NCBI RefSeq assembly: GCF_001650905.1
Contig: NZ_LXYG01000017.1
Span: forward strand, 310,001 to 374,000
From: Balneola sp. EhC07
Lineage (GTDB): Bacteria; Bacteroidota; Rhodothermia; Balneolales; Balneolaceae
DNA: 64,000 nucleotides
Reading direction: 5' to 3'
Shown here: piece after piece, positions 24,361-28,131 of the stretch
Layout: the number at the start of each line of letters is the position of its first letter
How positions within the stretch are numbered: position 1 is the first letter of the stretch
The notes under the pieces: generated by a model
The model's database searches: none
The model's input: the letters and a program-made list of their open reading frames with translations, nothing else
Told to the model about the DNA's origin: nothing
Translations under genes and position numbers: made by a program

Positions 24361-24507
24361 GCAAAGGCTTTGACGTAGAACCCTTGTTCTAAGCTTTATT
24401 TATAAGCTTCTTCAACTAACACAAGCGTCTCGCCTGTGTATTTCTTGGAAAACATTCGTGAACTAGAATGGGGTGATTAAGATAGGAACTCAAAATTTAA
24501 TCAAAAG

Positions 24508-25425
24508 CTATTTAATTAAAGTAAACTTCTTTGTCACTAATTGGTTGGAGGTTTTAAGTGTATAAAAGTAAGTGCCACTTGATAAATTACTACCATCAAA
24601 ATTTACAGAGTGTTTACCAGCTGATAAAATGTTGTTTTGTAAAATGGCTACTTCCTGACCGATCATGTTAAAAATGGAAAACCTAACTTTTTCTGTTTGC
24701 GCTAATTCAAATGAAAAAGTTGTGGTTGGATTGAATGGGTTGGGATAGTTTTGAAGCAAGCGAAAGCTATAATTTTGAATTCCTTCATTCTTAATATCTG
24801 TTGCTATGACAGAAGTTGGGCTTACAAGTCTTCTATTATAGACTTCAATATGCAGGACTCTAGAATCTTTGATTAGCTCATCCGCAAGTGAATCAATTTG
24901 AATCTCTGAAAATCCCCATTTAGAAAAACCATTTCGGAGTTCCAGTACTTCTGCATTTAAGCTGTCCGCCATAAAGCGAATGGTTGATGTGTCGACAGGA
25001 TTTTCAAAATATAGAACAATATTTCCACCTAAATATTGTTCTGAATTAAAACTAACAGAATCAATTATTCCTAAATAATCTACAACAATAGTTTGTTCGC
25101 CACTTTCTTTTGGAAGAAACAATGAAGACGTATTTAATTCCCAGGTTAATTCTCTTTTGTCGCCGATAAATAGTGTATCTCTATAATCATCTGTAAGGTA
25201 TTCATCTCCAAAAAGATTAATTCTAGAAAATACGAGACTAACTATCCAAGAGGATGATCCTCTATAAGTATGAATTGCATCTGAATCATTATAAAAAGTG
25301 GCTTTAAGGATGATTGTTTCCCCAACTCCATATTGTGTTTTATCTGTAGTGATTTCTGAAGAAACCTGCCCAAAAAGCGGATTGGCGAAAAATAAGAACA
25401 GTATTAGTATTAAAATATTTTTCAT
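24508..25425 (-). CDS. Secreted protein with type IX (NYPNPFNP) C-terminal sorting domain
   Basis: About 305 residues: signal peptide (MKNILILILFLFF to LFGQ), a beta-sandwich region at about 20-110 that resembles an intracellular-proteinase-inhibitor/BsuPI-type fold (TTDKTQYGVGETIILKATF), a middle region without a recognised family, and a C-terminal sorting domain of about 85 residues starting LLQNYPNPFNPTTTFSFEL and ending KKFTLIK. Such domains direct export by a type IX system. The ATG at 25425 is preferred to upstream starts, which lie in the RNase P RNA terminator. Confidence 0.82.
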   Translation of the reverse strand: MKNILILILFLFFANPLFGQVSSEITTDKTQYGVGETIILKATFYNDSDAIHTYRGSSSWIVSLVFSRINLFGDEYLTDDYRDTLFIGDKRELTWELNTSSLFLPKESGEQTIVVDYLGIIDSVSFNSEQYLGGNIVLYFENPVDTSTIRFMADSLNAEVLELRNGFSKWGFSEIQIDSLADELIKDSRVLHIEVYNRRLVSPTSVIATDIKNEGIQNYSFRLLQNYPNPFNPTTTFSFELAQTEKVRFSIFNMIGQEVAILQNNILSAGKHSVNFDGSNLSSGTYFYTLKTSNQLVTKKFTLIK

Positions 25426-25451
25426 AGTTAATATTAATAAAGTTAGCCTCA

Positions 25452-25485
25452 TAAAACAAAACCCCGCCCTTTCGGACGAGGTTTT
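25452..25485 (-). terminator. Intrinsic terminator of rnpB
   Basis: On the minus strand, AAAACCTCGTCC-GAAA-GGGCGGGGTTTT (12-bp stem with two G-U pairs, GAAA tetraloop) followed by further Ts. It starts about 10 bp after helix P1 of the RNase P RNA and ends before the next gene. Confidence 0.9.
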
Positions 25486-25694
25486 CATATTCAACAGGAA
25501 AGTCTATAAGCCGGATTTTGTTCCTCCGCCAATTGGCAGATTCGGTAATCATTTATCTGGTGCACTCCACCCGATGGCGTCACGACAAGTGGCGTATACC
25601 ATCTTACATGAGCTTGCACCCCGCGAGGTTTACCGTGCCTCTTCGGTCACCCTAAGAGCGGTGAGCTCTTACCTCACCTTTTCACCATCACCTT

Positions 25695-25828
25695 CAACGC
25701 GGAGCGTTGGAAATTCCAATGTTTAAAGCTCAAATTTCAAACAAGCACCAATGTTTTAATATTTAAACATTGTGATTTGTTTGTGTTTTGGAGCTTGTTA
25801 TTTGAAATTTAACCAGCGCTCCGCGCTG
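25695..25828 (-). repeat. Palindromic insertion in helix P12 of rnpB
   Basis: Minus strand: CAGCGCGGAGCGCTGG (25828-25813) pairs with CCAACGCTCCGCGTTG (25710-25695), 16 bp with one mismatch and one wobble. The 102-nt AT-rich cap holds nested palindromes: AAATTTCAAATAACAAGC (25810-25793) with GCTTGTTTGAAATTT (25746-25732), and CAATGTTT/AAACATTG (25749-25756, 25765-25772). P12 is variable in length, but this cap resembles an inserted palindromic repeat. Confidence 0.75.
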
Positions 25829-25943
25829 GAGGCAGTTTGTTTTCTGTTGCACTGTCTGTCTCAGTATCATTCCTGATAAAGAGCCTCTGCTACGCCCGAA
25901 GGATCGCAGAGCGCGGTACTTGTCGGTGTCCGGACTTTCCTCC

Positions 25944-26247
25944 CCCCGCACATAACATTTAACGATCAATGCTTTTTTCTAACCTTTCTTTCAACCTTCT
26001 AATACCTTGTCCGTGATGTTTCAGCTTTCTTTCTCTGGCTAAAGCATCACTTTTATTTTTGAAGCCCTCAAAATATACCAACTCATAAGGCATTCCACTT
26101 TTGGTGGATTTGACCTCTCCATTATTATGTTGGGCTAATCTTTTCTTAAGATTACTTGTGTACCCAACATAAAACTTATTATTGGTTTTACTTTGAAGGA
26201 GGTAAACATAGAAATACATAAAAGAGCATTAAATGTTATGTGCGGGG
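25944..26247 (-). mobile_element. Putative intervening sequence in the P3 arm of rnpB
   Basis: CCCCGCACATAACATTTAA at 25944-25962 and its exact reverse complement at 26229-26247 form a 19-bp stem that merges with the P2/P3 pairing (CTCC with GGAG outside it). The 266-nt loop holds one intact GIY-YIG gene. An ordinary P3 helix is capped by a short loop, so the loop contents look inserted. The boundaries of the original insertion cannot be fixed without an uninterrupted relative. Organisation is like 23S rRNA intervening sequences. Confidence 0.65.
25959..26219 (-). CDS. GIY-YIG nuclease-domain protein encoded inside rnpB
   Basis: An 86-residue single-domain protein of the UPF0213/YhbQ-like GIY-YIG type. 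The GIY motif reads YVYLLQS, the YIG motif FYVGYTSNLKKRL with the catalytic Arg, then a His in AQHNNG and the metal-binding Glu in ALARERKLK, so the nuclease residues look intact. A basic C-terminus (GIRRLKERLEKS) could bind nucleic acid. It is on the rnpB strand, starts 9 nt after one stem arm, and its stop codon lies in the other arm. Target unknown; cleavage of an rnpB allele lacking the insert (homing) or of RNA are possible. Confidence 0.88.
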   Translation of the reverse strand: MYFYVYLLQSKTNNKFYVGYTSNLKKRLAQHNNGEVKSTKSGMPYELVYFEGFKNKSDALARERKLKHHGQGIRRLKERLEKSIDR

Positions 26248-26360
26248 AGCGATTACCCGACTTTCCTGAATCAAAATACGGTTTTGACCAAGATTATAAA
26301 AGAACGAACAAAGGGATTAGTTAATAAGTAGATAAGTAAGAATCATAAGCATATAATTCT

Positions 26361-26413
26361 CCCTTCGAAGGGAGATGAACATCCAAACAGTTCTTTGGAT
26401 GTTCCGAGGGATG
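26361..26413. repeat. Degenerate intergenic repeat, copy 2
   Basis: Begins CCCTTCGAAGGGAGATGAAC and ends GAGGGATG; internal CATCC-AAACAGTTC-TTTGGATG pairs form a hairpin. It matches the element at 11077-11132 in order and spacing of its blocks. It lies between rnpB and the thiamine pyrophosphokinase gene. Confidence 0.55.
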
Positions 26414-26436
26414 CCAGAATCTTTGCTAATATTTAA

Positions 26437-27066
26437 TCACTTTATCTTACTCCCATCCCCAATAAACACCGCTAATTTCCCGGAAGAAAACTCAAGCGTA
26501 ACCGGAGAAGCAGTAACGGTATTAGAAGTAGCATCCTGAACGCCGGGTTCTAAACGCACATTATTCAGAGGATACAGAACTCCGGAAGAGATGAAATTCT
26601 CCACAAACCCGGAAACAGGGAAAAAAGAAATAGGTGTATTCATCGGGATATCTTTTTCAAAAGGAGAATCAGCTAAAAAAGTTTTCCCGTAATCATCTTC
26701 AAAAACCAAAGACTCAAACCGGTCATGAAATTCCACCAACGAGGAAAGATTCTTTTGCTGATGGTCGATGCGTTTTCCCAAAGCCCCCAGAACAGAACAG
26801 CTTGTCGCGCCCTTTTTAAGTGCATAATTCAACGCTTTATCCAGATCGGTGCTGTTTTGGTCGTCGAGTTTTAATACTTCAATATTTTCATGATTGGTGT
26901 ATTTGAAACTGTCCAGATCTCCGAGAACGATATCAGGAGTAAAACCATATCCGAGAAACACGTGCCCACCGCTATCGGCGCCAATTTGGAGATCGGCTTT
27001 TTTGATATGGGTTTCTAATAAAGCTTTGGTTGGAGGCGTGCCTCCGCAAATAATAAGTACGTGCAT
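26437..27066 (-). CDS. thiN: Thiamine pyrophosphokinase
   Basis: A 209-residue enzyme transferring pyrophosphate from ATP to thiamine to make TPP. Motifs of the family: GADSG near the N-terminus, PDIVLGDLDSF (metal-binding Asp residues), NSTDLDKAL, and LGALGKRIDHQ, followed by a C-terminal beta-sandwich thiamine-binding domain. The ATG at 27066 begins the first strand (MHVLIICGG) and is preferred to a frame extension of 27 residues that crosses the promoter region shared with the divergent nrnA-like gene. Confidence 0.93.
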   Translation of the reverse strand: MHVLIICGGTPPTKALLETHIKKADLQIGADSGGHVFLGYGFTPDIVLGDLDSFKYTNHENIEVLKLDDQNSTDLDKALNYALKKGATSCSVLGALGKRIDHQQKNLSSLVEFHDRFESLVFEDDYGKTFLADSPFEKDIPMNTPISFFPVSGFVENFISSGVLYPLNNVRLEPGVQDATSNTVTASPVTLEFSSGKLAVFIGDGSKIK

Positions 27067-27159
27067 ATATTTTTGATGTAAAACTCGAAAAAAATCACCC
27101 CAAAAAGAAATGGAATTCTGGCTATATACATCTATTTTGGCGGTCAAAAAGAAAACTCT

Positions 27160-28131
27160 ATGTTTGAAAAGCTAATTCCGGAATTGTTATCTCACAAAAA
27201 GATCGGAGTTTTTTCACATGTGCGTCCTGATGGAGATTGTTTGGGCTCACAAGTTGCACTTTGCCTGTGGTTGCAGAAAAACGGCGTTGATTCATCCGCA
27301 TTTAATGAAGATGAAGTAAATAAGAACCTCGAATGGCTAACCGAATTTAAAAAGATCGAAAAACCCGATTTCTCTGATCTGAAAGGATTTGATGCCTTTG
27401 TTTTTGTAGATGGGAATGCGCTTCATCGTTTTGGTGATACTGCAGAAAAAATCACCGAACTTGGAAAGCCGTTATATATGATAGACCATCATCCACAACC
27501 GGATGAAGTTTTTAAAGAGTTTGTGTCAAAAACGGACGCTTCATCTACTTGTGAGTTAGTTTATAATTTGTTTGCAGAGCATGATATCACTCAAATTGAT
27601 GAACAATCAGCTAAAGCCATGTATGTTGGAATAGTAACCGATACCGGTTCTTTTCAGTTTGACAGCGTGAAACCCGGCACTATGAAAGCGGCTTCAACTT
27701 TGTTGGAATATGGAAATTTTACTCCTGATGAAGTTGTACAAAAAGTATATTCTTCGAAACCCATGAAGCAGATCAAGTTACTGGGTTTGGCACTGGATAC
27801 CATATCTTTGCATGAGAACCAACAAATTGCGACTATGTACGTTACAAAAGCGATGTTTCAGAAAACGGCTACTTCCAATGAAGACACGGAAGGATTTGTA
27901 GCTTATCCGCTAAGTATAGAAGGAGTAAAAGCATGCATTTTCTTACGAGAAGACGAAGATAGAATTAAATTAAGCCTGCGTTCTCAAAGCGACATTGATG
28001 TAAATGAATGGGCAAGAGAACTCAATGGCGGAGGTCATAAAAAAGCAGCAGGAGCCTGGTATAAAGGCAATATGGAAGAAGCAATCGAAGACGTCATCAG
28101 TATTGGAAGAAAACAATGGATTAACGATTAG
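27160..28131 (+). CDS. nrnA: DHH/DHHA1 phosphoesterase (NrnA-like)
   Basis: A 323-residue phosphoesterase of the NrnA family, which degrades short oligonucleotides and often dephosphorylates pAp. The DHH domain (1-190) has HVRPDGDCLGS, a metal Asp in FVDGNA and the DHH motif in MIDHHPQP; the DHHA1 domain has GGGHKKAAGA near the C-terminus. Length is normal. It begins a likely operon with the HtrA-like protease (4 bp downstream) and the REC-GAF gene. Confidence 0.92.
   Translation: MFEKLIPELLSHKKIGVFSHVRPDGDCLGSQVALCLWLQKNGVDSSAFNEDEVNKNLEWLTEFKKIEKPDFSDLKGFDAFVFVDGNALHRFGDTAEKITELGKPLYMIDHHPQPDEVFKEFVSKTDASSTCELVYNLFAEHDITQIDEQSAKAMYVGIVTDTGSFQFDSVKPGTMKAASTLLEYGNFTPDEVVQKVYSSKPMKQIKLLGLALDTISLHENQQIATMYVTKAMFQKTATSNEDTEGFVAYPLSIEGVKACIFLREDEDRIKLSLRSQSDIDVNEWARELNGGGHKKAAGAWYKGNMEEAIEDVISIGRKQWIND

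Follow-up and report, generated by a model that had tools for sequence, protein, structure and literature searches.

A GIY-YIG nuclease gene in the P3 helix of a Balneola RNase P RNA gene, a candidate minimal mobile element

An RNase P RNA gene in two parts

The gene for class A RNase P RNA (rnpB) of Balneola sp. EhC07 lies at positions 25495–26268 of the reverse strand of a 64,000-nt stretch of contig NZ_LXYG01000017.1 (hereafter, the window) and is 774 nt long, including an insert in its P3 helix. A covariance search matches positions 25491–25990 (−) to RF00010 with 162.9 bits (gathering score 100). P1 is misplaced in this match, since its true 5′ strand lies on the far side of the insert. 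There, the P1 5′ strand (CAGGAAAGTC, 26259–26268, −) forms a 10-bp match with the P1 3′ strand (GACTTTCCTG, 25495–25504, −), and the P2 5′ strand (GGTAATCG, 26250–26257, −) pairs over 8 bp with the P2 3′ strand (TGATTACC, 25544–25551, −). A hairpin with a T-run resembling an intrinsic terminator can be read from the sequence after the gene (25451–25485, −). The predicted fold of an 801-nt segment unites P1, P2 and the P3 stem and is far more stable than expected from shuffled sequences (z = −12.75; 0 of 20 shuffles as stable). Without the net 284 nt contributed by the insert, the gene would shrink from 774 to approximately 490 nt; the preliminary description of this DNA had given approximately 406 nt for an RNA trimmed of this insert and of one in P12.

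The preliminary description of this DNA had proposed one rnpB gene joined across the insert, and at the level of sequence the pairing of P1 and P2 confirms that both parts belong to one class A RNase P RNA gene. It had also named two findings that would speak against this proposal, namely parts that fail to join and a second, uninterrupted rnpB elsewhere. P1 and P2 do join the parts, and the genome (3.62 Mb, 98.56% complete) has a single RF00010 match, with no second class A rnpB found by this search. The genes for the RNase P protein (rnpA) and RNase III are both present. It is very improbable that the interrupted gene is dead or displaced and that another RNase P serves the cell: the single RF00010 match and the presence of rnpA argue against this, as does the rnpB core, which is 96–98% identical to that of four sister genomes, and P1 is kept across the insert in all 7 interrupted genes for which the 5′ end can be read (8–15 bp). 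What could still accommodate a replacement is the approximately 1.4% of the genome that may be missing, or a class B or protein-only RNase P, as the genome-wide search was for class A. P2 was paired by script in five of the insert-bearing genes (7–9 bp).

Two other parts of the locus vary or persist independently of the insert. A long arm in the P12 region, with approximate ends at 25703 and 25826 (−) set by the covariance match and an alignment of sisters, is common to G000 (the window genome), G001, G003, G004 and G006, whether P3 is occupied or not. The 5′ leader of rnpB (approximately 26269–26363 in the window, and the corresponding sister loci) occurs as two types in these five sisters, one in G000, G003 and G004 and the other in G001 and G006, with no match to the presence of the insert; this distribution suggests local recombination.

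The P3 insert, its stem and its protein

The insert comprises 302 nt (25945–26246, −) in place of an 18-nt P3 tip, as delimited by the empty alleles of sisters G001, G004 and G006, whose immediate flanks are the same, and by an identical copy in G003. Two 19-nt arms, at 26229–26247 (−) on the 5′ side and 25944–25962 (−) on the 3′ side, are perfect complements and extend P3 as an inverted repeat that encloses 266 nt with one open reading frame (ORF) of 86 codons (25959–26219, −). Relatives carry compensatory changes in the 3′ arm. As this arm overlaps the stop codon of the ORF, the stem is maintained together with the protein. A similar arrangement of P3 recurs in other species with arms that have diverged yet remain complementary, which makes it more than a chance pairing.

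Covariation in the arms was assessed on four sequences only, and all of the following values are to be read with that number in mind: 73 of 76 cells are paired, whereas slid controls reach at most 52.8%; 7 of 20 pairs are changed on both sides; and the covariation score is reached by 0 of 500 shuffles, the count of pairs changed on both sides by 14 of 500 and the count of pair types by 54 of 500. The P3 stem is kept by compensatory changes. Together with the perfect 19-bp stem, this covariation bears out the earlier view of a helix-borne insert in P3.

The encoded protein matches the Pfam GIY-YIG family (PF01541, 69.7 bits). By profile, its nearest solved chains are UPF0213 (1zg2, 1.3e-15) and Slx1 (5e-7), with a weak match to I-TevI (0.0047), and the predicted structure, which has a mean pLDDT of 84.9 and is less confident in its final 20 residues, is likewise closest to UPF0213 and Slx1 chains. 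Residues Y6, G19, T21, R27, H31, A59, E63 and K67 are invariant in 16 aligned rows; of these, the glutamate E63 is given a catalytic role by analogy. Among four distinct copies, dN is 0.15–0.21 while dS is saturated and hence undefined, so no dN/dS ratio is given; judged from these sequences, the protein is under purifying selection, in keeping with the intact GIY-YIG gene that the preliminary description had placed in P3. Its 86 residues amount to little beyond a catalytic domain, which would favour recognition of a structure rather than of a long sequence. Carriage by phages or plasmids found no support: one phage record (37%) and three plasmid records (37–44%) were matched, none of which covers 80% of the protein.

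Several other identities for the insert were considered and set aside. Group I and II introns are rejected, as the ORF fills the loop and Rfam introns gave no match at E ≤ 1 in 24500–27500 and none at the gathering score in the whole window. No recognised transposase is present in the insert, whose loop is filled by the GIY-YIG frame, and the boundaries of the element are ambiguous by a few bases, with no clear target-site duplication. The arms are not a genome-wide repeat: the exact sequence GCACATAACATTTAA occurs only as the two rnpB arms, and with up to 2 mismatches it has 9 matches, as many as its reversed control. Similarly, across 7 genomes TTTCTAACGGGGT has 5 occurrences, confined to 2 of the genomes, and 4 of the 5 are arms of the element.

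Where the element ends and the host helix begins is less sharply drawn. One short P3, in L003, looks like two fused arms, and its reading as an excision scar is weakened by the empty P3 loops of L121, L134 and L136, which, like that of L003, read GCAC..GTGC. The base of the stem may thus be that of the host P3, which speaks against taking the rnpB arms for the ends of the element itself.

Distribution of the insert in Balneolaceae and beyond

The preliminary description had suggested a search of relatives for P3 inserts and empty sites, and both exist. Of 92 genomes in the family set, 88 have an RF00010 match; all 88 loci were taken, and one (G088) is cut and unreadable, which leaves 87 readable P3 loops. 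Five hold an intact GIY-YIG frame (G000, G002, G003, G028 and G033, from three genera), one is decayed, five are long for other reasons and 76 are short, at approximately 12–54 nt. The short loops were all read individually, since script patterns had missed 21 of them. In the decayed copy (G074, locus L133), which adds a fourth genus, the frame is truncated and the 19-bp stem is still perfect. For G033, whose contig begins within the 5′ arm, the 3′ junction alone can be read. The genome of G002 is one contig, so the arrangement is no assembly artefact. Among the five long loops without an ORF (L018, L050, L052, L059 and L062), those of L059 and L062 contain perfect inverted repeats, 18 and 17 bp long, and some of the five inserts resemble dispersed repeats of the GTCATCC type.

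Across the order (128 genomes), the five best matches to the P3 proteins, at 173–179 bits, are without exception in rnpB P3, and the next scores 95; searches of the class (244 genomes) and of an evenly drawn sample of the phylum (394 genomes) added no match at the 173–179-bit level. By these scores, the rnpB P3 proteins are a discrete subfamily within the order.

The inserts of G000 and G003 are identical (0 of 302 positions differ), whereas the two genomes differ at 12 of 448 positions in the rnpB core, 68 of 1,350 upstream and 23 of 450 in a stretch farther downstream, most of the sequence in between not being alignable. If sites are equal and independent, the chance of finding no change in 302 positions is 1.7e-7 at a divergence of 5.0% and 2.7e-4 at 2.7%. 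The identical tract spans 456 bp and includes conserved core. In the core rnpB tree, G000 groups with G001 (0.944 support) and G003 stands apart. These comparisons make a recent sharing of the insert between G000 and G003 likely, and the occurrence of one identical insert in two species, between flanks that have diverged by approximately 5%, fits the spread among rnpB alleles that had been proposed from the window alone. Ordinary recombination or assembly mixing of bins could also produce this identity, given that G003 is a metagenome bin close to G000.

A protein tree gives a further view of these copies. The first version, with 49 rows, was poorly resolved, and the tree used here drops 18 of them. 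In it, G003 groups with the Gracilimonas copy of G028 (96/80) and not with its congener G002, and the clade of Balneolaceae rnpB copies is weakly supported (84/18).

The same helix is occupied in another phylum. Among 20 loci of a named genome collection, two carry a GIY-YIG frame in rnpB P3: L068, from Ca. Moraniibacteriota (genome G541), and L067, from an uncultured bin (G540) that falls in the order of G541. Parts of these rnpB genes score 77.8 and 59.9 bits with RF00010, for which the gathering score is 100; in both genes the P1 strands pair on either side of the insert, and P2 is found by eye as 7 bp with one G–U pair each, the script having picked another stretch. These two loci alone exceed 180 bits for the protein among 128 genomes of their order, with the next at 93. 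In the tree, a starred branch (98/97) divides these two from the copies in Balneolaceae, and uniting all rnpB inserts in one clade costs 16.5 log units relative to the free tree (p-AU 0.06), so that a single clade is disfavoured and not formally rejected. We therefore favour two separate entries into the P3 helix of rnpB, as judged from the tree.

In the rnpB genes of L067 and L068, further hairpins with CAGCCCTTTTGG arms are present (approximately 1770–2200), two in L067 and one in L068, and these arms resemble those of the P3 GIY-YIG insert. As a candidate repeat, CCAAAAGGGC was not convincing, with 10 matches against 5 for the control in G540 (4 of the 10 in rnpB), 4 against 8 in G541 and 8 against 16 in G542.

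This distribution bears on whether the insert is simply a passive intervening sequence, in which a GIY-YIG gene entered once along with a palindromic repeat and has since persisted only by ordinary recombination among relatives or by vertical descent with losses, its nuclease serving host repair or lying idle. The five long P3 loops without an ORF indicate that P3 tolerates extra hairpins in general, and the protein is nearest to the UPF0213/Slx1 group; both would suit a passive insert. Such an insert, however, would not readily account for a protein conserved despite saturated dS and found at one site in three genera, for the restriction of homologues above 100 bits to this site among the 128 genomes examined in the order, or for a related lineage in the same P3 tip of another phylum, and we consider this reading improbable.

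Related inserts and a possible route of spread

GIY-YIG frames related to the P3 protein also lie inside inverted repeats in 16S rRNA (L071, L074) and 23S rRNA (L181, L182), and others interrupt protein genes. One divides a SLFN_AlbA_2/HATPase_c_4 gene (L065) and another an IS91 Y2_Tnp gene (L069), in which the profile is matched over positions 1–114 and then 118–178. Phage-type integrases are interrupted near a conserved site in L090 and L091, as recognised by Pfam from their left pieces (Phage_integrase matched up to positions 158 and 157 of 172), and in L089, as judged by eye; the right-hand pieces of L090 and L091 (23 and 26 aa) have no Pfam match. With copies in both rRNA and protein genes, those in rnpB look like a branch of a wider family. 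We know of no mechanism that would remove hairpin-borne GIY-YIG copies from within protein genes.

When 4 duplicates are removed from the 56 loci listed, 52 remain, and at 30 of these a tight inverted repeat scoring at least 15 surrounds the ORF, whereas 239 random placements reach a maximum of 15.1, with 7 reaching 13. Many arms open with a run of C (CCCCG, CCCAG, TCCCG or CCCCC), similar and not one sequence. The other 22 loci score below 15, several of them adjoining tRNAs, and the inverted repeats of L073 and L076 are terminator-like.

Some neighbouring observations concern these related genes. Thirteen lie beside a tRNA gene (L066, L072, L073, L078, L080, L093, L097, L180, L187–L189, L191 and L195), and in L180 an arm of the inverted repeat (1738–1763) overlaps the tRNA start (1760). 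The frame in L101 (1319–1972) sits inside another that resembles, by eye, a four-helix-bundle 23S intervening-sequence protein, neither piece of which has a Pfam match. L110 and L111 apparently carry a GIY-YIG frame in a Y1-type transposase gene, with WQR and HDHIIR recognised by eye. The window genome itself contains a different GIY-YIG gene of approximately 107 aa at L034, L035, L037, L040 and L042, and in diverged form at L036. Its copies are approximately 88–96% identical in DNA, and those of L040 and L042 contain stop codons; inverted repeats of 28–36 bp, mostly of the GGTCATCCCGAACTTGTTTCGGGATCTT type and some with a further inverted repeat outside them, enclose L035, L036, L037, L040 and L042.

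The spread of sites raises the alternative of transposition by a hairpin-specific nuclease, with the repeats as true ends, P3 as one of many sites and no allele-specific homing. The C-rich outer ends shared by inverted repeats of rnpB, 16S, 23S, coding and intergenic copies are in line with this, as are the interrupted integrase, IS91-transposase and ATPase genes and a Slx1-like fold that suggests specificity for branched DNA. Yet there is neither a transposase nor a clear target duplication, the close subfamily in the order occurs only at rnpB P3 (5 of 5), the exact arm sequence is found nowhere else in the genome and some empty native P3 loops carry the GCAC/GTGC base, all of which leave transposition rather unlikely.

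Our preferred explanation, which we consider probable, takes the insert for a minimal mobile element of approximately 300 nt that sits in P3 as a folded-out stem and spreads by homing-like transfer of DNA. The element would consist of an inverted repeat of approximately 20 bp and, occupying the loop, one gene for a Slx1-like GIY-YIG nuclease. In the RNA, the inverted repeat would prolong P3 and place the extra 300 nt outside the catalytic core, and this folding-out of the element as an extension of the helix would explain why rnpB tolerates it. Translation of the ORF presumably uses the rnpB transcript. By analogy with 23S intervening sequences (PMC11270868), RNase III may cut the perfect stem, removing the loop without ligation, the most likely outcome by a small margin, as we give nearly even odds to the stem staying uncut; cleavage would yield a two-piece RNase P RNA held together by P1, P2 and the base of P3. 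RNase P activity is presumably retained despite the insert. In the DNA, the nuclease would cut insert-free rnpB in or close to the P3 hairpin, and the recipient gene would acquire the element when the break is repaired with an occupied copy as template. Against this explanation, 86 aa leave no space for a separate DNA-binding domain, and a long history of vertical inheritance in which many lineages lost the insert could also produce the deep divergence among genera.

More tentatively, and short of what we would call probable, these copies may represent an undescribed class of minimal element, an inverted repeat of approximately 20–25 bp with a Slx1-like GIY-YIG gene, that acts on the hairpin formed by its own ends. 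Such a class would have colonised rnpB at least twice, as well as 16S and 23S helices and conserved coding sites in integrase, transposase and ATPase genes of several phyla, and would split essential ribozymes into pieces that still work.

The insert shares features with several known systems. Homing introns with GIY-YIG enzymes of the I-TevI type have the same type of catalytic domain and both occupied and empty alleles, whereas the insert described here has no Rfam intron match and its protein lacks the separate DNA-binding domain that I-TevI has. UPF0213 and Slx1 nucleases are closest by solved structure, in sequence and predicted fold; unlike them, the present gene lies inside an inverted repeat inside an RNA gene.

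Closer parallels come from rRNA. A study of Patescibacteria describes rRNA inserts that encode GIY-YIG proteins, are unlike group I or II introns and were judged by its authors to fall outside homing; it also places rRNA inserts of all kinds mostly at the top or base of stem-loops and reports that 23S intervening sequences are excised by RNase III (PMC11270868). The GIY-YIG ORF and the lack of a group I or II intron are thus shared with those Patescibacteria/CPR inserts, whereas here the host is RNase P RNA, and the documentation extends to covariation in the stem and to alleles with an intact, a decayed or no insert; ‘RNase P’ does not occur in the text of PMC11270868. Intervening sequences of 23S rRNA, as in Coxiella (PMC4990558), likewise sit in a helix of a structured RNA, contain a small ORF and are patchily spread, and differ in that their ORF encodes an S23 protein rather than a GIY-YIG protein and their host is rRNA rather than rnpB; excision of the P3 insert is presumed. 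On these comparisons, we place the rnpB insert with the helix-borne intervening sequences, a known general type. No GIY-YIG insert in a bacterial RNase P RNA was found among the literature matches listed, in which subscription journals are thinly covered.

RNase P is an essential enzyme that trims tRNAs, and its RNA is an essential ribozyme, usually encoded by a single gene. A nuclease-encoding insert in this gene, with empty sites in sister genomes, is a natural experiment on whether a split or enlarged RNase P RNA can work, and it poses the problem of target finding by an 86-residue nuclease that has no separate DNA-binding domain. The insert also connects the GIY-YIG inserts of Patescibacteria rRNA, themselves poorly understood, with hairpin-borne GIY-YIG genes at a broader range of sites, protein genes among them.
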